From the IMG/VR virus record IMGVR_UViG_3300042895_001344, positions 153,143 through 217,142 of that record: a stretch of 64,000 bases of DNA, one strand, 5' to 3'. Each line of letters opens with the position of its first letter. Position 1 is the stretch's first letter. Shown piece by piece: positions 29,780 to 62,894 of this stretch. The DNA comes from a virus. The notes beneath the pieces are model-generated. The model saw only the letters and a program-made list of their open reading frames with translations, did no database searches and was not told the origin of the DNA. The translations under genes and the position numbers were made by a program.

Positions 29780-29971
29780 ATGATTATTATAGACTTATCT
29801 AAAGAAAAAAGTATTGAGACAGCGTTAAGAACTTATAAACAAAAAGTTCAAAAAACAAAGCAAGTTCAAAAATTGAGGGAAAGACAACAGTTCGTAAAAC
29901 CTTCCGTTAAAAAAAGAACTGAAAAATTAAAAGCAGTTTATTTACAACAAAAAAGAAATGGACTTAGTTAA
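29780..29971 (+). CDS. rpsU: Ribosomal protein bS21
   Basis: A 63-residue bS21 homologue: MIIIDLSKEKSIETALRTYK, then RERQQFVKPSVKKRTEKLKA and a basic end. The length and order (beta start, basic helix, KPSV turn, RR/KR helix) are those of bacterial bS21. In Bacteroidota, bS21 helps hide the anti-Shine-Dalgarno sequence of 16S rRNA, so a phage copy could change which mRNAs ribosomes prefer. No Shine-Dalgarno precedes this gene. It is the only plus-strand gene between 24977 and 40379, and its 3' end is a shared terminator palindrome. Confidence 0.9.
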   Translation: MIIIDLSKEKSIETALRTYKQKVQKTKQVQKLRERQQFVKPSVKKRTEKLKAVYLQQKRNGLS

Positions 29972-30703: not shown

Positions 30704-32545
30704 TTAATCGTTTAAGATATCATTTATTTTTGTCTCTATTTCATAAATATTCTGTTGAGCTTTTTCCATATCAAACAGAATATTAAAATCTTCTTTTTCT
30801 TCACCTAACATACCAAGTATTTTAGATTTTTTTGATTTTTTAGCTAATGTAGATTCACTCAAAGGTTCCTCTCCTCCACCCGCTGGTGGCGGTGGTGCTC
30901 CACCTCCCATATCCATTCCTCCACCTCCCATATCCATTCCTCCACCCGCTTCTGCTCCTGCGGCTTCCATTGCCTTTTCTCTATCCTCTTCAGGAATACC
31001 ATACTTAGCATCTACCTCATCAAATACACCTGAACGTTTAATAACATTCTGAGTATTCGTTAATTCAAATCCTAATGCACGTTCTAAACGTTGTTGTTGT
31101 AAGTCTAACATAACTTCACTATCACTAAATCCAAGGATATTTTTCTTAGCCCATGTATGTGATACTGGTAAGATACCCACTTGAGATTGATCCGATGTTG
31201 CGTCTTTATAAAGTGTTACTTTTTCTTTCCATTGTTCAATACGTAATAAATCAGATTGTGCTGATGGGTTAGTTAATGATAATGAGAAATTATTTAATTC
31301 ATCCTCCATACCTAAAAGGTATAATTGAATTAATGCAATTTTATTTAATTCTTGAATAACAGATTTTTGAATTCTATTAATAGTTCTAGCAAAACGAATA
31401 TCCATTAAAGCTAAACTCTTACCTTCACCGACAACTTCTTCAAATCCTAAGAACGCTTTAGGTATACGTAATGCGGCTAACATCTTCTTTTGAATGTATT
31501 CAATATCAGCAATCTCTCCTAAGTTTTGTGCTCCTGGTAATGTTTCAATTGGATTAGATTGTGATGGATCACGAACAGGAATAAAATAATCCTGATCAAC
31601 AGCCATTTGATTATATCTCATATCGACTTGACCGTTACGTGGATCTGAAATCTGATCTCTTTTAAATTTGTTTGCAACACGTTGTACGTAAGATTCAATA
31701 TCCTTATCATCCATATTACCAACGAATACTTTGAATACACGTCTTTCAGGTGCTCTTGATGTTCTATAGATTAACATGGCATCTTCAGCAAGTAAAAGTT
31801 GTTTCCAAATACGTCTAATTTTATCTAACATAGAAGTACCGTAAGGTAACTTTCTATCATCACCTAATAATCTAAAGTGAGCAATTTCCCATGCTTGAAA
31901 TTCCAAATCTTTGTTCTTCCATTGAAAACGTAATTCTCTTGATGGAACTTTTAAATCTCTATTTTGTGTTGTGGTCTTACCCGCGGCACCTTCAATTCTT
32001 TCAATTTCAATATTTGGTAATTGTTGACATCCGATGATACCTTTTTCGGGATCTAACTTTAAATAAACAAAGTTGTCACCATACTTACAAACACCTCTAG
32101 TCCACATTTGTAAGTTAGTATTAACGTCTAATCTGTTATTAAATAAATCTTCTAATATTTCTTTAATTCTATCTGATTCAGAATAGATCGTTAAAATTTG
32201 ACCCTTTTCAGACATTGTAGTGGATTCTTCCGCATATATGTCTAACGCTGCAGATATTTCAGGAGTAAACTCCATCGCCTCATAATCGTAATAAGCTGCT
32301 AATCTATTTGGTTCATAATAAACCGATTGGTTATAGAGAGATTGGTCTAATTTAGTCCATTTATCAGCGATGTATTGACTCTGTTGAGCCTGTAACATTG
32401 CCTTATCATAATCTTCTTTGTTATCTGTTTTTAATAATTCATCTTTACTGAAATTAAATGAAGGTGCCTGTGTTACCTGAGGTTTCCCTGGGTACCCAAA
32501 CATCTTTGTTAATTTCTGAAATACAGTTAAATTTTGATTTGCCAT
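30704..32545 (-). CDS. Portal protein, T4 gp20-like
   Basis: A 613-residue portal. It carries the family layout: YEPNRLAAYYDYEAMEFTPE, IYAEESTT (like T4's active-site-proximal region), RGVCKYGDNFVYLKLD, AWEIAHFRLLGD, LPYGTSMLDKIRRIWKQL and a long crown region. The C-terminal ~80 residues are Gly/Met/Pro-rich then helical. It lies between terminase and the scaffold/protease genes, the expected T4 order. It forms the dodecameric DNA-entry vertex. Confidence 0.88.
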   Translation of the reverse strand: MANQNLTVFQKLTKMFGYPGKPQVTQAPSFNFSKDELLKTDNKEDYDKAMLQAQQSQYIADKWTKLDQSLYNQSVYYEPNRLAAYYDYEAMEFTPEISAALDIYAEESTTMSEKGQILTIYSESDRIKEILEDLFNNRLDVNTNLQMWTRGVCKYGDNFVYLKLDPEKGIIGCQQLPNIEIERIEGAAGKTTTQNRDLKVPSRELRFQWKNKDLEFQAWEIAHFRLLGDDRKLPYGTSMLDKIRRIWKQLLLAEDAMLIYRTSRAPERRVFKVFVGNMDDKDIESYVQRVANKFKRDQISDPRNGQVDMRYNQMAVDQDYFIPVRDPSQSNPIETLPGAQNLGEIADIEYIQKKMLAALRIPKAFLGFEEVVGEGKSLALMDIRFARTINRIQKSVIQELNKIALIQLYLLGMEDELNNFSLSLTNPSAQSDLLRIEQWKEKVTLYKDATSDQSQVGILPVSHTWAKKNILGFSDSEVMLDLQQQRLERALGFELTNTQNVIKRSGVFDEVDAKYGIPEEDREKAMEAAGAEAGGGMDMGGGGMDMGGGAPPPPAGGGEEPLSESTLAKKSKKSKILGMLGEEKEDFNILFDMEKAQQNIYEIETKINDILND

Positions 32546-32599: not shown

Positions 32600-34378
32600 T
32601 TATCTACGTTTACCAAATAACCAAGAATTCTCTTGATATGTTTGTTTACTGACATTCATATTATTATCTCGATAATATAAATTATTATTATCCGTTCCCA
32701 TTGAACCTATTTGATCAAATGCGGTACCATATGAATAGAATGATTTACTTGTCTCATATGATCTTTCACTCATAGTCCAAGAATCTAACATTGCTTTGTT
32801 CGCATTTTCGTTCTTTTGTAATAAATTAAATGATACATCCGCAGCATATAAAGCCATTGACATACCCATAATAGCATCATCATGTGTTCCTTTCATATGA
32901 TCAGGTCTACCGTTCATATAAACAAACGTGTTAAGTTCGTTTAATAATCTTGCAGATCTAACAATAAATCCTTTTCTAAGTTGTTCCTCAAATGCTGCAA
33001 CAATTTGAGTTCTTTTGTTGTTAAAGTTAAGACCTGGTATTTTCTCCATCGCCTTAGCGTTATAGTCCCAAATGTTTTGAGTATTAACACCCTCAACGTA
33101 TACGTTTTTGTAATTTAACTCAGTTAATTTTCTTGATGTTGCAACTCCCATTCCACCTGTAATATCCGTTACAATAAACGCATTACCATATAGGATAGCC
33201 CATTTGTATGCAACTGCCGCTAAGTCATCGGGAGGTATTTTACCAATATATTCTGCAACCTGTTCCCTATCATCAAAATCTATAATTGATATAGCCGAAA
33301 AATCCTCACTATCTCCTCTACTAACATCCACACCCATAATATAACGATGACCAATTATTGGTTCTTTCCATTGCCAAAACGTAGCCTGCATGTATTTTTC
33401 AATAGGTTCTCTAATCATGTTTTTAGCAATATTCTCTTGAATATCACCAGGGATAACACCATCTCCCGAACCTAAGAAATCACATTCCAACTCCTGAGCA
33501 ATTTTACGTCTATCGTATTTAAATTTCTTAGACATTGACTCAAACCACGAAGAAAATGGTTTATAACCATCCTCTAAAAGTTTGTTATATTCTTTCATAT
33601 CAAAATCATGTAAAACAACTTCATCGTCATTATATTGTTCTCTATTCAACATGTAATGACAGATGTCCTGACATTTAACCCAATGTAAATCTTTGGTGTA
33701 ACGAGGGTCTTTAAACCACCTTAAATCTGTTATATGGAAATCATTGATTCCACGTAATGCTTGGTCGTAAACACCGTAATAGATAGGGTCATAACCATTT
33801 GGAGTGGAGATAAGAATAATCTTACCACCCGTTGATAGGGACGCCATAGATGCTGCCCAAAAATCATCACCTGCTTCAATATATGCTGCCTCATCAAATA
33901 CAAGTATGGTAGGTGTATAACCACGAAGGGCATCCGCTGAAGTTGCAACCGCCTTAACCTCACAACCATTATTTAATCTAAATCTACTCTCTGAGTTTTT
34001 ATCAGGTGAGAACCCAACATTTAACCATTCAGGCCATTGTTCCAAGAAGTGTCTAACCTTATTAGCCATCTCCACCGCAGTATCACGTTTGTTTGCAATA
34101 AGTAGAACTCTCTCAGGATTATCGGGTTTTGCTAATTGTAATTTTTTTGATAACCATGCGGCCGTTACTGTTGTTACACCCGCCTGTCTATATTTTCTTG
34201 TAATGTTTTCGTTGTAATCTTCGTAGTCCTTTATTAGTTGAATTTGATCTTCAAACAGGTCCATTGGGACATACTTCTTCTGTGTATTATCGAATGTTTG
34301 TAAATACGTTCTAAGTGCATACGGAGTATCTTTTATAATCTTTGCATACTCAATTAATTGTTCCGTTCTGGTATTCAT
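32600..34378 (-). CDS. terL: Terminase large subunit, T4 gp17-like
   Basis: A 592-residue packaging motor. The N-terminal ATPase has the region YRQAGVTTVTAAWL (63-76) at the Walker A site, where the usual Lys is replaced by Val, and Walker B ILVFDEA (158-164). The C-terminal nuclease carries VDVSRGDSEDFSAISIID and DDAIMGMSMALY, typical of the RNase H-like active site. It packages DNA into the prohead through the portal encoded just downstream. Its own TATTTATA box precedes it. Confidence 0.9.
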   Translation of the reverse strand: MNTRTEQLIEYAKIIKDTPYALRTYLQTFDNTQKKYVPMDLFEDQIQLIKDYEDYNENITRKYRQAGVTTVTAAWLSKKLQLAKPDNPERVLLIANKRDTAVEMANKVRHFLEQWPEWLNVGFSPDKNSESRFRLNNGCEVKAVATSADALRGYTPTILVFDEAAYIEAGDDFWAASMASLSTGGKIILISTPNGYDPIYYGVYDQALRGINDFHITDLRWFKDPRYTKDLHWVKCQDICHYMLNREQYNDDEVVLHDFDMKEYNKLLEDGYKPFSSWFESMSKKFKYDRRKIAQELECDFLGSGDGVIPGDIQENIAKNMIREPIEKYMQATFWQWKEPIIGHRYIMGVDVSRGDSEDFSAISIIDFDDREQVAEYIGKIPPDDLAAVAYKWAILYGNAFIVTDITGGMGVATSRKLTELNYKNVYVEGVNTQNIWDYNAKAMEKIPGLNFNNKRTQIVAAFEEQLRKGFIVRSARLLNELNTFVYMNGRPDHMKGTHDDAIMGMSMALYAADVSFNLLQKNENANKAMLDSWTMSERSYETSKSFYSYGTAFDQIGSMGTDNNNLYYRDNNMNVSKQTYQENSWLFGKRR

Positions 34379-40378: not shown

Positions 40379-42412
40379 ATGTCAGTAGATTTTTTTGAGG
40401 ATGGACCAACCACGAACCCCAAGAAGGTTAGAAAAGGGTCAAACACACCAATCTTGGACAATTTCTCTCGTGATCTTATTAAGATGGCTGAAGAGGGTAA
40501 AATTGATCCTGTAGTTGGTAGGGATAAAGAGGTAAAAAGAATTGCTCAAATTCTATCTCGTAAAAAGAAAAACAACGCGGTAATTGTTGGAGAGGCTGGT
40601 GTCGGTAAATCAGCGTTAGTTGAAAAATTAGCATTAATGATATACAAAGGAGATTGTCCTTCAAATCTCTTAGACAAACGTATCATGTCTTTGGATTTAA
40701 CTTCATTAGTTGCCGGTACAAAATACCGTGGACAATTTGAAGAGAGAATTAAAGCAATTATCAACGAATTACAAGAGGCTCCAAACGTAATCATCTTTAT
40801 TGATGAATTACATACTATGGTTGGTGCCGGTAATGCGAGTGGTGCGATGGATGCTGCAAATATTTTAAAACCCGCATTAGCACGTGGTGAATTACAATGT
40901 ATTGGTGCAACAACATTTGATGAATTTAAAAAACATATTGAAAAAGACGCAGCATTAGTTCGTCGTTTTCAAAAAATAGTTTTACAAGAACCAACCGAAG
41001 AAGAAACATTAGAAATTCTTAAAAACTTAACAACATCATATCAAGACTTTCACAAAGTAAGTTATGAAGAAGGTGTTTTAGAAACTATTGTTAAACTTTC
41101 AGGTCGTTATATTACTGATAGACAATTTCCTGATAAGGCAATTGACGTATTAGATGAATTAGGTTCTGAAAAAAGAGTATCGTCTAAAATTCCTGAAGTA
41201 ATTGAAAAATTAAAAAAGGAAATTGACATTATTAAAGAAAAGAAAGTTCAAGTTGTAAAAAGTCAAAATTACGAACAAGCTGCGAAGCTTCGTGATGAAG
41301 AAAGGAAGGTCACAACAAAATTAGATGAAGAAAAATTAAAGTGGTCCGACAAACAAAAAGATAATAAAATACCGGTTTCATTAGATGATGTTTACGACAT
41401 CGTTAGTGATATGACGGGAGTTCCAATTACTAAACTTGACACTAAAGAAACTAAGAAGTTATTAGAACTTGAAAATATTTTATCTTCAAAAGTAATTGGT
41501 CAAGACGAAGCGGTTAAAACAATCTCTAAGGCAATTAGAAGAAATCGTGTAGGTATCAAAGAAGCAAATAAACCAATCGGTTCATTTATTTTTATCGGAT
41601 CAACAGGTGTTGGTAAAACATATCTTGCAAAGTCAATTGCTGAAACCTTATTTGGTGATCCTGATAAAATTATCCGTGTTGATATGAGTGAGTATATGGA
41701 GAAACATAATGTATCTAAATTAATCGGTTCTCCACCGGGTTATGTCGGTTATGATGAAGGGGGTCAGTTGACTGAGAAGATTAAAAATAACCCATTCTCT
41801 GTCGTTTTATTTGATGAAATTGAGAAGGCTCATAAAGACGTGTTTAATATCTTACTCCAAATTTTAGATGAAGGACATTTAACAGATTCATTTGGTAGAA
41901 AAATTAATTTCACAAATACAATTGTTATCATGACATCTAACGTAGGAGCTAAACGTGTATCTGATTTAGGTGCAGGTGTTGGATTTAAAACTTCATCAAG
42001 TGAAGAACAACAATATGAAGTTAGAAAGACAATGATTCAAAAGGCATTGAAACAACAATTCAATCCTGAGTTTTTAAATCGTATTGACGATATCATTCTA
42101 TTCAATTCATTAAATGATGAAACGTTAAGAAAAATTATTGGAATTGAAGTTAATAATTTAAACAAACGTTTAATTAATAAGAACTACAAAATTAATTTCG
42201 ATAAAACGGTTATCAATAGAATTTATGAATTGAACTCACAAGAAGAGTACGGTGCACGTCCGTTAAAACGTATTATACAAAATCTTTGTGAAGACTTTTT
42301 GAGTGAGGAAATTTTAAAAGGTACAATTTTAGAAAATGTACAATATATTTTGAAATATAAGGACGAAAATTTAACTATCACTAAAAAAACCACCAATATT
42401 GAATCAAAATAA
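40379..42412 (+). CDS. clpC: ClpC/ClpA-like AAA+ unfoldase without N-domain
   Basis: A 677-residue unfoldase of the Clp/Hsp100 class 1 family. AAA1 has Walker A GEAGVGKS (71-78) and IIFIDELHTMVGAG. A UVR-like segment (NYEQAAKLRDEE, ~297) lies between. AAA2 has GSTGVGKT (~407) and VVLFDEIEKAH. The VGF (534-536) in the second AAA module is the ClpP-docking tripeptide. The usual ~145-residue Clp_N adaptor domain is absent. It may feed selected proteins to host ClpP. The start ATG is chosen because the promoter lies between it and an in-frame TTG. Confidence 0.9.
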   Translation: MSVDFFEDGPTTNPKKVRKGSNTPILDNFSRDLIKMAEEGKIDPVVGRDKEVKRIAQILSRKKKNNAVIVGEAGVGKSALVEKLALMIYKGDCPSNLLDKRIMSLDLTSLVAGTKYRGQFEERIKAIINELQEAPNVIIFIDELHTMVGAGNASGAMDAANILKPALARGELQCIGATTFDEFKKHIEKDAALVRRFQKIVLQEPTEEETLEILKNLTTSYQDFHKVSYEEGVLETIVKLSGRYITDRQFPDKAIDVLDELGSEKRVSSKIPEVIEKLKKEIDIIKEKKVQVVKSQNYEQAAKLRDEERKVTTKLDEEKLKWSDKQKDNKIPVSLDDVYDIVSDMTGVPITKLDTKETKKLLELENILSSKVIGQDEAVKTISKAIRRNRVGIKEANKPIGSFIFIGSTGVGKTYLAKSIAETLFGDPDKIIRVDMSEYMEKHNVSKLIGSPPGYVGYDEGGQLTEKIKNNPFSVVLFDEIEKAHKDVFNILLQILDEGHLTDSFGRKINFTNTIVIMTSNVGAKRVSDLGAGVGFKTSSSEEQQYEVRKTMIQKALKQQFNPEFLNRIDDIILFNSLNDETLRKIIGIEVNNLNKRLINKNYKINFDKTVINRIYELNSQEEYGARPLKRIIQNLCEDFLSEEILKGTILENVQYILKYKDENLTITKKTTNIESK

Positions 42413-43058
42413 TCTTTGGGTATTTGGAGATTCCTTTTCTGTTCCATTTAAAAAAATAGAAAAGGAATGTCCTTATGTCCATTATAAAGGGTACTGTCCA
42501 AAAATATATTCAGAACTTTTATCTGAAAAATTAGAATATAATTTAATTGATATGTCAATTGGTGGATGTTCTAATTATAGTTTATTCCATAAATTTATTG
42601 ACTGTGTAGAAAAAATTAAACCTAATGACATTTTAATATTTGGTTGGACACAACCAATTAGATTTAGGGTTGCATCTAAACATAATGATTTTTATGACGT
42701 TATGATTGCGGTTGTAAAACATATGACTGACATGTTTACACTTAAAGTTGATACGTTACAGGACATAACAATTAATCGAAATGAAAATTCCGTTTATTAC
42801 ACCGAATTATCGGATTACATAAAACTTATAAATTTTACATTAAAAAATAATAAAATAATTCATTGGACTTGGGTAGAACCATCTAATAAATTTTTTACTG
42901 ATGAAAAACAATATGAAAAAGCATATTATGATTTATTAGAACCATATAAAAAATATCTTTTAATAAAAGAAGAAACAAATAAAGAAATTGACGATTTTCA
43001 TTATGGTGAAATTGCTCATTTAGAATTATCAGAAGATTTATATAAAAAAATAATGTAA
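42399..43058 (+). CDS. SGNH/GDSL-like hydrolase
   Basis: A 219-residue protein. The block I motif is WVFGDSFSVPF (GDS near residue 10) and a later DDFHYGEIAH near 200 gives the D-x-x-H of block V. GGCSNYS fits block III. The family hydrolyses esters, often on glycans or lipids; phage members may trim surface sugars. The start is TTG overlapping the clpC stop by 14 nt; no ATG precedes the GDS motif. Confidence 0.65.
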   Translation: MNQNNLWVFGDSFSVPFKKIEKECPYVHYKGYCPKIYSELLSEKLEYNLIDMSIGGCSNYSLFHKFIDCVEKIKPNDILIFGWTQPIRFRVASKHNDFYDVMIAVVKHMTDMFTLKVDTLQDITINRNENSVYYTELSDYIKLINFTLKNNKIIHWTWVEPSNKFFTDEKQYEKAYYDLLEPYKKYLLIKEETNKEIDDFHYGEIAHLELSEDLYKKIM

Positions 43059-43062
43059 ATAG

Positions 43063-43092
43063 TTGACTTTTTATTAAAGTTATATATATTTA
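43063..43092 (+). promoter_or_regulatory. Bacteroidetes-type promoter (TTG-N19-TATATTTA) of the small RNA
   Basis: TTG at 43063-43065 and TATATTTA at 43085-43092, spacer 19 nt. No gene begins between this and the terminator at 43171, so it appears to drive an untranslated RNA. Confidence 0.55.
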
Positions 43093-43098
43093 TATCAC

Positions 43099-43198
43099 TA
43101 TAGGTTCTCTTTGTCGATTACCTTTTCGTTTTTCAAAAGTAAGTGGGGTTGAACCCACCCAAAGACCTTAAACCCCGACATCTCGTTGGGGTTTTTTT
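43099..43198 (+). ncRNA. Candidate structured small RNA, three-way junction
   Basis: About 100 nt from predicted start to terminator with no convincing ORF. Predicted stems: P1 CTTTG (43109-43113) with CAAAG (43160-43164); P2 TTAC-C-TTTT (43118-43126) with AAAAGTAA (43135-43142); P3 GTGGG (43143-43147) with CCCAC (43154-43158). P2 and P3 are adjacent and could stack. A terminator hairpin closes the RNA. The sequence is not an obvious tRNA. It lies between an SGNH-like gene and a lipoprotein gene. Function is unknown. Confidence 0.5.
43171..43198 (+). terminator. Terminator of the candidate small RNA
   Basis: AACCCC / GGGGTT hairpin followed by seven T residues. Confidence 0.75.
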
Positions 43199-43204
43199 AT
43201 GTAA

Positions 43205-43236
43205 TTTGGTTTTATCGTTAAACTTTCGTATATTTA
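43205..43236 (+). promoter_or_regulatory. Bacteroidetes-type promoter (TTTGG-N19-TATATTTA)
   Basis: TTTGG at 43205-43209 and TATATTTA at 43229-43236, 6 nt before the lipoprotein ATG, implying a leaderless or near-leaderless mRNA. Confidence 0.55.
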
Positions 43237-43242
43237 CTATAT

Positions 43243-43461
43243 ATGAAAAAAGTAACATTTATTTTAGCTCTTGGTGTAGCACTTACACTAACAGCATGTG
43301 GTTCAGGGTCAGCCGCAACAGAAACAACAGACTCTACAGTAGCTCCTGTTGCAGATACAACTGCAGTAGTCGCTGATTCAACAGTATCACCTGTAGAAGG
43401 TGGTGGTGTTTTATTAAAAGAAGGTGCTGAAAAACCAGTATCTAATGAAGAAGTAAAATAA
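43243..43461 (+). CDS. Small phage-encoded lipoprotein
   Basis: A 72-residue protein with an Sec/SPII signal peptide: KK charge, hydrophobic core, and lipobox TLTAC (C19), followed by a Ser/Ala/Thr/Val-rich mature part. It is likely anchored in the outer or inner membrane. Phage lipoproteins of this size can block superinfection by masking a receptor (as in T5 Llp), but that role is only an inference here. It has its own host-type promoter and terminator. Confidence 0.7.
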   Translation: MKKVTFILALGVALTLTACGSGSAATETTDSTVAPVADTTAVVADSTVSPVEGGGVLLKEGAEKPVSNEEVK

Positions 43462-43514: not shown

Positions 43515-43943
43515 ATGGATATTACAAACGAGACACAAGGCGAATTAATATTATTACGAGGTTTACCTGGTTCAGGTAAAACAACTCTAGCAAAAATCAT
43601 ACTACAACTTAGAAGTACGGACGAACCTGAAATTTTATCTGCCGATGATTTTTTCGAAGATAAAGAAGGTGATTACAATTTTGATCCTACTAAATTAAAA
43701 GAAGCTCATAACTATTGTCAATTTAGATGCTCAGAAAGAATGAGACAACAAAAGGCAAAGATAGTTGTTGCAAATACTTTTACCCAAGAATGGGAAATGG
43801 ACGAATATTTTAAAATGGCTGAAAGATACAATTATCGTGTTCATACAGTGGTTGTTGAAAACAGACATGGTAATGAAAATATTCATGGGGTTCCCGAAGA
43901 TAAACTTCAACAAATGAAGAATAGATTTCAAGTTAAACTTTAA
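43515..43943 (+). CDS. P-loop kinase-like protein (N4BP2/PNK-like)
   Basis: A 142-residue P-loop protein. Walker A is GLPGSGKT (16-23); SADDFF, FDPTKLKEAHNYCQ and VVANTFTQEWEM follow, then NRHGNENIHGVPEDKLQQM. This order is typical of the small AAA_33/N4BP2L1-type kinases, some of which are polynucleotide 5'-kinases. It is directly upstream of an RNA ligase 1 and a cyclic-phosphate receiver protein, supporting an RNA end-healing role. The substrate is inferred. The stop overlaps the next start. Confidence 0.7.
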   Translation: MDITNETQGELILLRGLPGSGKTTLAKIILQLRSTDEPEILSADDFFEDKEGDYNFDPTKLKEAHNYCQFRCSERMRQQKAKIVVANTFTQEWEMDEYFKMAERYNYRVHTVVVENRHGNENIHGVPEDKLQQMKNRFQVKL

Positions 43944-44185
43944 TGAGTCAATTTATTTCTTCTTTTATTGAATCCATAAATCCAAAACCAAAGATGAAAT
44001 TTCACGCTAACTTACATAGAAACCAATGGTCAATATATCCATTACCTTTTGTTTATTTTTATTTTGAAACATGTCAACCAGATTCTCATGTATCAATTTG
44101 GAAAAACAAAATATGTGGAGTATATTTGTCCTTTAATTGGTTGAAACATACTTACAACATCGGAATCCACAAAACAATAAACTAA
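43943..44185 (+). CDS. Small hypothetical protein in the RNA-repair cluster
   Basis: An 80-residue basic/aromatic protein (KFHANLHRNQWSIYPLPFVYF, then GVYLSFNWLKHTYN). Its start overlaps the kinase stop and its stop overlaps the RNA ligase ATG, so it is translationally coupled to both. No family recognised. Confidence 0.5.
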   Translation: MSQFISSFIESINPKPKMKFHANLHRNQWSIYPLPFVYFYFETCQPDSHVSIWKNKICGVYLSFNWLKHTYNIGIHKTIN

Positions 44186-45255
44186 TGTTAGAGATTTTAG
44201 AGAAATATTATACTGATGGTTTGTTACATAAACAAACACATCCTACTAAAGATTTGACTATATGGAATTATTCTCCTAAAGTTCAATACGAAAGATTGTG
44301 GGATGATATTACTTTGCAATGCCGTGGATTGGTGACCAATTCAAAAGGTGATATTGTTGCAAGACCATTTAAGAAATTCTTTAACTACGAAGAACATAAA
44401 CCAGAAGATATTCCAAATGAAACTTATGTTGTTTATGAAAAGATGGATGGATCATTAGGTATTCTTTTTAATTATGAAGGAGAATGGATATTATCCACTC
44501 GTGGTTCTTTTACATCACCGCAAGCAATTAAAGGAAAAGAAATTCTTGATAGACACGACATCAGTGCGTGGAGAAAAGACAACACATATTTGTTTGAAAT
44601 TATTTATCCTGAAAATAGAATTGTTGTTGATTACAAAGGTGAAGAAAAATTAGTTGTTCTTGGTGCTTTTCATACTGAAAGTGGAATGGAAATACCTGAT
44701 AGTAGTTTATTTTGGACACAAGATTCAGGATTTGAAGTTGCTATGACATACAAAACTTGGGGAGAAGGATATGATTTACTTAAAGAAGAAATATCTAAAG
44801 ATAGAGAAGGATATGTAATTAAATTTAAGAATGGTTTTCGTATGAAAATCAAAGGAGAAGAATATAAAAGATTACATAAAATATTAACCAACTTTTCATC
44901 CAAAGATATTTGGGAATTATTGAGGGATGGAAAACCTATGGATGAATTTTTAGATAGGGTACCTGATGAATTTTACAAGTGGGTTAAACAACAAGTGAGT
45001 TCTTTTGAATATGCCAAATACAGAATTGGTGAACATTGTGGTAAGATACACGATTATTTTAGATATGGAAAATATGGTGATGTGGACCCAATGCCAACAA
45101 AAAAAGATTTTGCGTTACATTTAGAAAAATGTAATGTTGAGACATTTTATAGACCAATATTATTTGCAATGTGGGACGGAAAACCATATGAACATATTAT
45201 TTGGAGAATAATGAAACCTAAATACGAAAAACCATTTAAGAAAGATGAAAATTAA
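44185..45255 (+). CDS. rnlA: RNA ligase, T4 Rnl1-like
   Basis: A 356-residue ATP-dependent RNA ligase. Motif I YEKMDGSLG places the adenylated Lys at residue 86. The DGYVIKF-type motif IV (EGYVIKFKNG) and motif V-like RMKIKGEEYKR follow. It joins 3'-OH to 5'-PO4 RNA ends; T4 Rnl1 repairs cleaved tRNA anticodons. The start at 44185 is chosen because it overlaps the previous stop as TAATG; an in-frame upstream ATG at 44137 would run deep into that gene. It overlaps the cREC gene by 11 nt. Confidence 0.88.
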   Translation: MLEILEKYYTDGLLHKQTHPTKDLTIWNYSPKVQYERLWDDITLQCRGLVTNSKGDIVARPFKKFFNYEEHKPEDIPNETYVVYEKMDGSLGILFNYEGEWILSTRGSFTSPQAIKGKEILDRHDISAWRKDNTYLFEIIYPENRIVVDYKGEEKLVVLGAFHTESGMEIPDSSLFWTQDSGFEVAMTYKTWGEGYDLLKEEISKDREGYVIKFKNGFRMKIKGEEYKRLHKILTNFSSKDIWELLRDGKPMDEFLDRVPDEFYKWVKQQVSSFEYAKYRIGEHCGKIHDYFRYGKYGDVDPMPTKKDFALHLEKCNVETFYRPILFAMWDGKPYEHIIWRIMKPKYEKPFKKDEN

Positions 45256-45733
45256 TAATAGATTGAGATTATACCTTGACGATATAAGAACTCCTGTGGA
45301 TGATGATTGGATTGTTGTGAGAAATTATGATGAATTTGTTGCACAAATAAAATTACATGGATTAGGTAATTTTGAAGTTATATCCTTAGATCATGATTTA
45401 GGTGAAGGTGCTATGGTGGAATACTATACAAATGTAAAAAATAATTATATGTTGGATTACAACAACATAGAAGAAAGAACGGGAATGGATTGTTGTAGAT
45501 ATTTGGTTAGTGAGAGTATGAACGAAAAAATACCCTTACCTCAAGTATATATACATTCCGCAAACCCTATTGGTTCCGCAAATATGATGGGATATATCAA
45601 CAATTATTTAATGAATTGTAGACTACCTCAAACCTGTGTAAGAGTTCAAATTAATCACACCATTAATGAAATCCACATGTTATCCCCTGAAGCACGTAAA
45701 GCAAAGTGGGATCGTAGTATGGAGAATGAATAA
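45245..45733 (+). CDS. Cyclic-phosphate processing receiver-domain protein
   Basis: A 162-residue protein of the cREC type: RLYLDDIRTPVDDDWIVVRN, FEVISLDHDLGEG, GMDCCRYLVSESM, PQVYIHSANPIGSANMMGYI. The family is predicted to process 2',3'-cyclic phosphate ends of RNA. Next to an RNA ligase and a kinase, it would heal the 3' end before ligation. The activity is predicted, not proven. Confidence 0.75.
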   Translation: MKINNRLRLYLDDIRTPVDDDWIVVRNYDEFVAQIKLHGLGNFEVISLDHDLGEGAMVEYYTNVKNNYMLDYNNIEERTGMDCCRYLVSESMNEKIPLPQVYIHSANPIGSANMMGYINNYLMNCRLPQTCVRVQINHTINEIHMLSPEARKAKWDRSMENE

Positions 45734-61693: not shown

Positions 61694-61766
61694 GCCTCGT
61701 TAGCTCAGTTGGTAGAGCAAGTCATTTGTAATGATTAGGTCTGCGGTTCAAGTCCGTAACGAGGCT
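61694..61766 (+). tRNA. tRNA-Thr (anticodon TGT)
   Basis: Cloverleaf read by eye: acceptor GCCTCGT / ACGAGGC, D arm GCTC...GAGC, anticodon loop TTTGTAA with TGT, T arm TGCGG-TTCAAGT-CCGTA. Discriminator T. CCA is not encoded. Confidence 0.88.
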
Positions 61767-62036
61767 CAACAGGTGACGACGGTGGTGTGACCCCACTGTC
61801 TATGAATCTCAACTATCCGTTTGAATCTAGATGTAGAACGGTGAGAGTAGAGTTACTATAAGTTGGAGTAATTAACCATTAAGCGAAAAGTAACCTCCGA
61901 TTCATGAATCAGTCTCGGACATGATGTACATAGATGGTACGAAAAACCTGTAACTTTTTGAAACTAACTCAACGAGGACTTTGTTAACCAGTGCATGACA
62001 CGGAGGTGCAACTTAAGTTGGGTTGGAATCAAACAC
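61767..62036 (+). ncRNA. Structured RNA region A, between tRNA-Thr and tRNA-Asn
   Basis: 270 nt with no ORF. Predicted stems: GACGGTGG (61778-61785) with CCACTGTC (61793-61800), 8 bp; a long stem CTC-A-ACT-AT-CCGTT (61808-61821) with AACGG-TGAG-AGT-A-GAG (61837-61852), including internal loops; TCCGA (61896-61900) with TCGGA (61915-61919). The 14-nt GGAGTAATTAACCA (61865-61878) recurs at 62752 in region D. It is part of a tRNA-interleaved structured transcript. Confidence 0.5.
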
Positions 62037-62109
62037 GCTTCCTTAGCTCAGTTGGTAGAGCGCAAAACTGTTAATTTTGAAGTCGGGGGATCGTGACCCT
62101 CAGGGAGCG
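62037..62109 (+). tRNA. tRNA-Asn (anticodon GTT)
   Basis: Acceptor GCTTCCT / AGGGAGC, D arm GCTC...GAGC, anticodon stem CAAAA / TTTTG with loop CTGTTAA (GTT), T stem GGGGG / CCCTC with atypical loop ATCGTGA. Discriminator G. CCA not encoded. Confidence 0.82.
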
Positions 62110-62202
62110 CAACGTGATAATCACTCCACGCAAGTGGTAAGCACCCGGCAGTAACACCGGGATGGCAATGTGGTTATTAAGAGGTAAGGAAAAGACTAAA
62201 AT
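62110..62202 (+). ncRNA. Structured RNA region B
   Basis: 93 nt between tRNAs. An outer stem ATAATCAC (62117-62124) / GTGGTTAT (62170-62177), 8 bp, encloses two hairpins: CCAC-GCAA-GTGG (GNRA loop, 62126-62137) and CCCGG (62144-62148) / CCGGG (62157-62161) with an 8-nt loop. It lacks tRNA arms of normal size. Confidence 0.5.
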
Positions 62203-62277
62203 GGGAATGTAGCTCAGTTGGTTAGTAGCAGTGCTCTCATAAAGCAAAGGTCTTTGGTTCAAATCCAAACTTTCCCA
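62203..62277 (+). tRNA. tRNA-Met-type (anticodon CAT)
   Basis: Acceptor GGGAATG / CTTTCCC (one mismatch), D arm with GCT/AGC pairing, anticodon loop CTCATAA (CAT), T arm TTTGG-TTCAAAT-CCAAA. Discriminator A. CAT can also be an Ile-type tRNA after modification. CCA not encoded. Confidence 0.75.
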
Positions 62278-62471
62278 CACGATTCGGTTAGTCACCGAAT
62301 AGTATGTCCAATATGATGAGAAATGGTTTGACAACCATATGGAAACGTACATTGACGTATAGGAAGAACGTCAGGGGACATCACCCCGACCTCGTGAGGA
62401 CGAAATGATTATTCCTAACCCGAAAGGGGACAGCTAAGACACCTGTGAGTTGGATAAATAAAGGTGTCAAC
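62278..62471 (+). ncRNA. Structured RNA region C
   Basis: 194 nt with a chain of hairpins: ATTCGGT / ACCGAAT (62282-62300), ATGGTT-TGAC-AACCAT (62323-62338), GGGG / CCCC (62374-62387), CCC-GAAA-GGG near 62420 (GNRA loop), and GACACCT (62438-62444) / AGGTGTC (62462-62468) ending 3 nt before tRNA-Ser. A GTGAGGACGAAA segment near 62394 resembles hammerhead-type core bases but the matching CTGATGA is missing. Confidence 0.5.
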
Positions 62472-62557
62472 GGAGAGATGGCAGAGTTGGTCTATCGCGA
62501 CAGTCTTGAAAACTGTAGACTGTAACAGGTCCGTGGGTTCGAATCCTACTCTCTCCG
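62472..62557 (+). tRNA. tRNA-Ser (anticodon TGA)
   Basis: A class II tRNA with a long variable arm: acceptor GGAGAGA / TCTCTCC, anticodon stem ACAGT / ACTGT with loop CTTGAAA (TGA), T arm GTGGG-TTCGAAT-CCTAC. Discriminator G. CCA not encoded. Confidence 0.88.
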
Positions 62558-62820
62558 CTGTAGAGTTTGCCCGTGGTAACGGTCTAATGGGGAAACCTTG
62601 TAGACTTCTCGCGTCAAAACCCAAAACACTGATCTACTGGTGCTTGGGCTAAATGTAGAAAAAAAACGGGATCTTTTTTAATCACAAATAAAAATGTGAG
62701 CTATAATAAAGTAGCCAATTATAAGCCAACATAAAGCTGTTGGATACAGACGGAGTAATTAACCAGAGTATAGTGCAACAATTGTGATATTATAACAAAT
62801 ACCCATTTGAGTGATTATTT
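62558..62820 (+). ncRNA. Structured RNA region D
   Basis: 263 nt without a gene. Stems include CCCAA (62620-62624) / TTGGG (62644-62648) with inner CACT / GGTG, and the hairpin CCAACA-TAAAGC-TGTTGG (62726-62743). The 14-nt GGAGTAATTAACCA of region A recurs at 62752-62765. It ends at tRNA-Glu. Confidence 0.5.
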
Positions 62821-62892
62821 GTTCTTGTCGACTAAGGGTTAGGTCACCTCCCTTTCACGGAGGTAATACGGGTTCGAATCCCGTCGAGAATA
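62821..62892 (+). tRNA. tRNA-Glu (anticodon TTC)
   Basis: Acceptor GTTCTTG / CGAGAAT (two wobble pairs), D arm GACT / GGTC, anticodon stem CCTCC / GGAGG with loop CTTTCAC (TTC), T arm ACGGG-TTCGAAT-CCCGT. Discriminator A. CCA not encoded. Confidence 0.88.
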
Positions 62893-62894
62893 CA

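Follow-up and report, generated by a model that had tools for sequence, protein, structure and literature searches.

What lies in the short gap near position 43,100 of the window, the final 64 kb of a 217-kb virus record? A first-pass annotation had placed a free-standing RNA gene there, with its own promoter, a three-way junction, and a terminator, and we asked whether comparison with relatives bears out the gene, its fold, and a role in trans. The RNA gene sits on the plus strand between an ORF at 42399-43058 (+), which has no Pfam match and is also found in a few relatives, and a small lipoprotein-like ORF that begins at 43243. Upstream lies a ClpA/C-type AAA+ gene (clp; 40382-42412, +; Pfam AAA_2 and ClpB_D2-small), a constant neighbor used here for context only, which in 102 of 106 loci is the first or second gene on the 5' side of the RNA. 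The structural genes of the window, including a large terminase judged from its relatives to be of the T4 type, are on the minus strand. A gene for ribosomal protein bS21 (29780-29971, +) lies on the opposite strand from them, as in the large freshwater Bacteroidetes phages described by Chen et al. (2022; PMC9723584).

The transcription signals are present as first described. The promoter (43063-43092, +) consists of TTG at 43063-43065, a 19-nt spacer, and TATATTTA at 43085-43092, the last overlapping a TATTTAT box at 43087-43093. This box occurs in all 85 homologues, nearly always 8 to 10 nt ahead of a conserved GG, and in 33 of the 34 RNAs of a homologue set anchored on clp. The promoter as a whole is similar to the Bacteroidota promoter consensus TTTG/TAnnTTTG (PMC7366714), and it combines TATTTATA with a host-type TTG box. 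The intrinsic terminator (43170-43198, +) pairs 43170-43179 with 43185-43194 in a 10-bp stem followed by a U run; its folding energy (z of -4.1) was equaled by none of the shuffles, and 5 of its 10 pairs have changed on both sides across homologues. The next gene has its own promoter, TTTG-N20-TATATTTA, at 43205-43236. With both ends placed from the promoter and terminator, the RNA would be about 97 nt long (43098-43196, +), and covariance model R1 matches the window at 43100-43195 with 113.5 bits. A TATTTATA box also stands 10 to 30 bases ahead of many structural genes, for example the ORFs at 30704-32545 (-) and 32600-34378 (-), and may serve this phage as a late promoter; its letters are similar to those of the T4 late box read backwards.

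The absence of an ORF, likewise proposed from the single sequence, is borne out by the homologues: a linker within the RNA varies between 5 and 16 nt by increments not divisible by three, and a single T of the core is present in some of them and absent from others. We considered a small peptide with a UUG start (M-SITFSFFKSKWG in the window) and rejected it, as its frame is not kept and its third codon positions are as fixed as the rest.

Homologues were collected by several routes. Among 50 loci fetched by the neighboring kinase-like protein, almost every one with a close relative of this protein also has the RNA, promoter and terminator included. A pattern made from the 5' half of the RNA gave at least 119 matches among viral contigs and three among genome contigs (L171 to L173); the latter three lack both hairpin H3 (see below) and the promoter box and were rejected as homologues, and L171 and L172 appear to be shared coding DNA. 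Removal of copies left at least 89 distinct RNAs from related Bacteroidota jumbo phages. To avoid the bias of searching with the RNA itself, we also collected 80 loci by their clp protein and scanned them with R1. The RNA lies directly 3' of clp in 53 of these, in which clp is at least 71% identical, whereas no RNA adjoins clp in 24 loci with clp at most 69% identical; three loci are cut off by the contig end. Mean identity across 34 clp-anchored loci is 78% for the RNA, 63% for the stretch upstream, 53% for the stretch downstream, and 77% for clp coding DNA, making the RNA about as conserved as the adjoining coding sequence, with its loops kept and its stems turned over. At convincing R1 scores, the RNA is single copy in each phage record examined.

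The family was not encountered elsewhere. A search of 297 Bacteroidota genomes turned up no convincing copy; the single weak R1 match there (L189) is of the terminator type only and was discarded. No Rfam 15 family, 6S RNA and tRNA included, matched at its gathering threshold (the best was MicC, with 24.9 bits against a threshold of 90), and no tRNA-like identity was found for the RNA. Comparison with the DNA of named phages returned just short pieces at chance level. A second pattern search for divergent copies yielded several closer members and no distant one besides L288, a sister phage discussed below, and no description of the family was found in the open-licence papers searched. The family is apparently undescribed and confined to one lineage of Bacteroidota jumbo phages; phage small RNAs as a kind are already known, and it is the family itself that is new. 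One further locus is a near copy of L007: at about 5550-5667 of L006, on a contig shared with L229, the promoter box and hairpin H1 are deleted between TATAT repeats and H3 and the terminator are kept, through either a natural deletion or an assembly error.

Does this RNA act on its neighbors in cis? Its position, almost always directly 3' of clp and in most loci ahead of the lipoprotein-like ORF, would suit a 3' UTR of clp or else a leader, attenuator, or riboswitch acting on the next gene. Against this, the RNA has its own promoter and terminator, and the next gene is served by a separate promoter. Moreover, the lipoprotein-like ORF (43243-43461, +; 43205-43461 with its promoter) is the usual but not the constant downstream neighbor; elsewhere a different gene or one on the opposite strand follows, and with a next gene so inconstant in identity and orientation, the RNA is not its leader. 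In three relatives (L123, L124, and L128), a minus-strand gene separates clp from the RNA. The terminator, the separate promoters, and the varying neighbors together speak against both a leader of the next gene and a clp 3' UTR, and we regard a cis-acting element as quite unlikely. A riboswitch or leader was rejected given the inconstant downstream gene and the intervening terminator and promoter, and an RNA derived from the clp 3' UTR given the conserved promoter box and the intervening gene in the three relatives. An antiterminator formed between the hairpin first called P3 and the terminator, also considered, is lost in several homologues. The view of the RNA as free-standing thus gains from the conserved promoter and terminator, compensatory changes, and changing surroundings. 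With its own promoter and terminator, no conserved ORF, and a predicted structure showing compensatory changes, the RNA is well supported by these comparisons as a stand-alone gene.

The fold initially drawn for the RNA, three helices (P1, P2, and P3) meeting at a junction, fared differently. Compensatory changes were found in P3, where all five pairs have changed on both sides, whereas P1 and P2 are disrupted in homologues, with no compensation. P1 shows no double changes in the wider alignment, and its 5' strand instead pairs locally in a hairpin that we call H1; the 3' strand of P2 is absent or broken in many homologues, leaving 78% of its cells paired. Taken together, P1 and P2 do not exceed shuffled alignments, either in paired cells (87.1% versus 86.8%) or in compensated cells (2 versus 1.1), and none of their pairs is within the 30 strongest in a mutual-information ranking. 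In addition, alignment column 6 covaries with its H1 partner and not with its P1 partner, and the GACC element is missing from L288. Since P1 and P2 are not confirmed, the three-way junction is unsupported. It was a reasonable drawing for one sequence, because part of P1 is favored when the window's own sequence is folded alone. Both copies of ACCU are also conserved in the main lineage, and the AGGU strand could pair alternatively in H1 or in P1. Even so, we judge it extremely unlikely that the junction is the fold of this RNA.

The fold that comparison supports is simpler. RNAalifold, applied to 71 RNAs, gives H1, H3 (the former P3), and the terminator, and neither P1 nor P2. H1 (43102-43123, +) pairs AGGU at 43102-43105 with ACCU at 43120-43123 around the loop UUUGUC (43110-43115); its inner pairs are UC/GA (43108-43109 with 43116-43117, +), and the hairpin as a whole is indicated by RNAalifold, pair counts, covariation ranking, and stem variants alike. 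A linker of varying length follows (43124-43142, +), within which UCGUUU (43126-43131) is conserved in the main lineage and whose U-rich alignments are uncertain. H3 (43143-43158, +) pairs GUGGG at 43143-43147 with CCCAC at 43154-43158 and presents the loop GUUGAA (43148-43153). Behind it lies a single-stranded GACC element (43164-43167, +), present in 34 of 34 clp-anchored homologues of the main lineage. GACC (columns 72 to 75 of alignment A1) stands after H3 in all main-lineage homologues, with no covarying pairing partner. A further helix that would close off the linker and H3 (UCGUU with AANGA) was rejected; it fits some clades in single folds and does not fit the main lineage.

Pairing in H1, H3, and the terminator is well above expectation. 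In these helices, 98.6% of cells are paired and 52 are compensated (shuffles, 6.3), a count that exceeds the number of independent events because many of the homologues are close relatives. In the wider alignment, the same helices have 65 compensated cells against 12.2, and none of 500 shuffles scored as high. Related phages supply many of the homologues, yet repeated changes are seen in several different stem sequences. All five H3 pairs have changed on both sides, and H3 pairs come top in the mutual-information ranking, made without a structure model, with the U-A/A-U pair of H1 in seventh place. H1 is AGGC/GCCU in L226, AAGAU/AUCUU in L243, AGGUA/UACCU in L257, and AGGA/UCCU in one clade. 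When the RNAs are read without an alignment, four pairs in a row can form around the H1 apex in 46 of 47, a reading that also accepts chance helices. The folding energy of the whole stretch (z of -2.5) owes its value to the terminator, and the body without it has a z of only -0.77; it is comparison that reveals the predicted structure, single-sequence folding energy alone being insufficient.

The loops behave in the opposite way from the stems. The apex of H1 is near-invariant, as UC-UUUGNC-GA, and the GUUGAA loop of H3 is found in 31 of 34 clp-anchored homologues. A distant case is L288, a sister phage record of 236 kb with a clp only 61% identical, in which R1 matches positions 1501-1605, about 3 kb downstream of clp. 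A TATATTTAT box stands ahead of this RNA and a terminator behind it. Its stems are wholly different (GUAACA/UGUUAC in H1 and AAACAGG/CCUGUUU in H3), whereas the apex, UUC-UUUGUC-GAA, and the loop GUUGAA are kept; UCGUU and GACC of the main lineage are not. With both stems replaced and the same loops retained, the core of the family therefore appears to be two hairpins with fixed loops.

Sequence comparison thus supports a conserved promoter and terminator, the helices of H1, H3, and the terminator, loops that hardly vary, and a gene that has no conserved ORF and does not depend on its downstream neighbor. Fixed loops on changing stems are probably read by a partner, and their conservation suggests that this recognition takes place in trans. 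Such loops would fit the regulatory or decoy role suggested in the first-pass annotation. We propose that a stand-alone structured RNA of about 97 nt, transcribed from its own promoter and ended by the intrinsic terminator, would carry two hairpins on a U-rich linker, H1 presenting UC-UUUGNC-GA and H3 presenting GUUGAA. The stems would serve as scaffolds and the loops as the working parts. Acting in trans, the RNA would most likely meet a protein that reads the loops: it would belong to a ribonucleoprotein (RNP), or it would be a decoy, keeping a host or phage RNA-binding protein engaged while infection proceeds. We put the chances of this reading, a trans-acting two-hairpin RNA whose loops are read by a protein as RNP or decoy, at about even.

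The main competitor is an antisense RNA whose loops and U-rich linker pair with host or phage mRNAs and alter their translation or stability. Most known phage sRNAs act by antisense pairing (PMC12197685), the start regions of the window phage are A-rich and would suit the linker, and pairing seeds would also look like fixed loops on changing stems. Target prediction, as proposed in the first-pass annotation and run on the phage's own gene starts, returned no target, with duplex energies similar to what shuffled RNA gives. Within the phage's own genome, the longest exact complement was likewise about as long as in shuffles, imperfect long complements (at most three mismatches) in the 297 Bacteroidota genomes were no commoner than those of a reversed control, and complementarity to rRNA did not exceed chance. 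These tests covered the own genome, Bacteroidota genomes, and rRNA, and short antisense seeds are compatible with their negative outcome; we consider an antisense mode possible but doubtful. Because the complementarity tests do not exceed chance, we favor a protein partner over antisense pairing, given the loop conservation as well. A mimic of a host RNA hairpin was also considered and rejected: the H1 pattern in the 297 Bacteroidota genomes is about as frequent as its reversed control, and the single R1 match there is the weak, terminator-type one.

Could the partner be the translation machinery? The RNA might work with the phage's bS21, which the window phage and most RNA-bearing records encode, or mimic the 16S rRNA tail near the anti-Shine-Dalgarno sequence; its GAUNACCU..UUUC presumably bears a loose likeness to the 16S 3' end. 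However, bS21 is also encoded in 8 of 11 sister records in which R1 finds no RNA, and it is absent from two RNA-bearing fragments of 137 and 168 kb, so bS21 is not specifically linked to the RNA. The ACCU strand is paired in H1 and varies to UCCU, GCCU, AUCUU, and UGUUAC, and thus offers no fixed mimic of 16S rRNA. A takeover of translation by either route is very unlikely.

Known systems offer partial parallels to the preferred reading, a loop-binding protein partner. PreS (LPR1) of phage lambda is a trans-acting, Hfq-dependent sRNA of about 88 nt that pairs with dnaN mRNA (PMC12197685). The present RNA is likewise small, non-coding, phage encoded, and thought to act on the host in trans, but no pairing target was found for it, and its host phylum is that of Bacteroides, whose sRNAs operate without obvious Hfq or ProQ (PMC7366714). 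AgvB, a prophage sRNA that competes for Hfq (PMC12197685), exemplifies a phage-derived decoy occupying an RNA-binding protein, a parallel drawn here in putative mode only. GibS, an intergenic Bacteroides sRNA (PMC7366714), shares the stand-alone character, the Bacteroidota-type promoter, and the lack of a known chaperone, but is chromosomal, unlike the present family with no member found in the 297 Bacteroidota genomes. Small structured RNAs are otherwise familiar from tailed phages. Stable RNAs C and D of T4 are encoded within a tRNA cluster, and the phi29 packaging RNA contains a three-way junction, unlike the present family; the comparison with these RNAs was made through Rfam only, where nothing matched.

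A more specific version of the protein reading, in which the RNA is one half of an RNP or a two-loop decoy that captures a conserved Bacteroidota RNA-binding protein during infection, is tentative. Since Bacteroides has no obvious Hfq or ProQ, the RNA could act as a lure for a missing RNA chaperone or for a defense factor of this phylum. If the partner is a protein, the RNA would be ready bait for an RNA-binding protein in a phylum with no known sRNA chaperone, and the covariance model and loop motifs allow the partner question to be tested directly. In any case, a well-supported and apparently undescribed RNA family is added to a widespread lineage of aquatic jumbo phages.

Two other features of the window concern RNA. 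Adjoining the RNA gene, 43515-45733 (+) is a possible RNA-repair cassette that encodes a kinase-like P-loop protein (PF13671), a ligase of the T4 RNA ligase 1 type (PF09511), and a protein with a cyclic-phosphate receiver domain (PF20274). Farther downstream, at 61694-62893 (+), lies a cluster of five tRNA genes (Thr, Asn, Met, Ser, and Glu).
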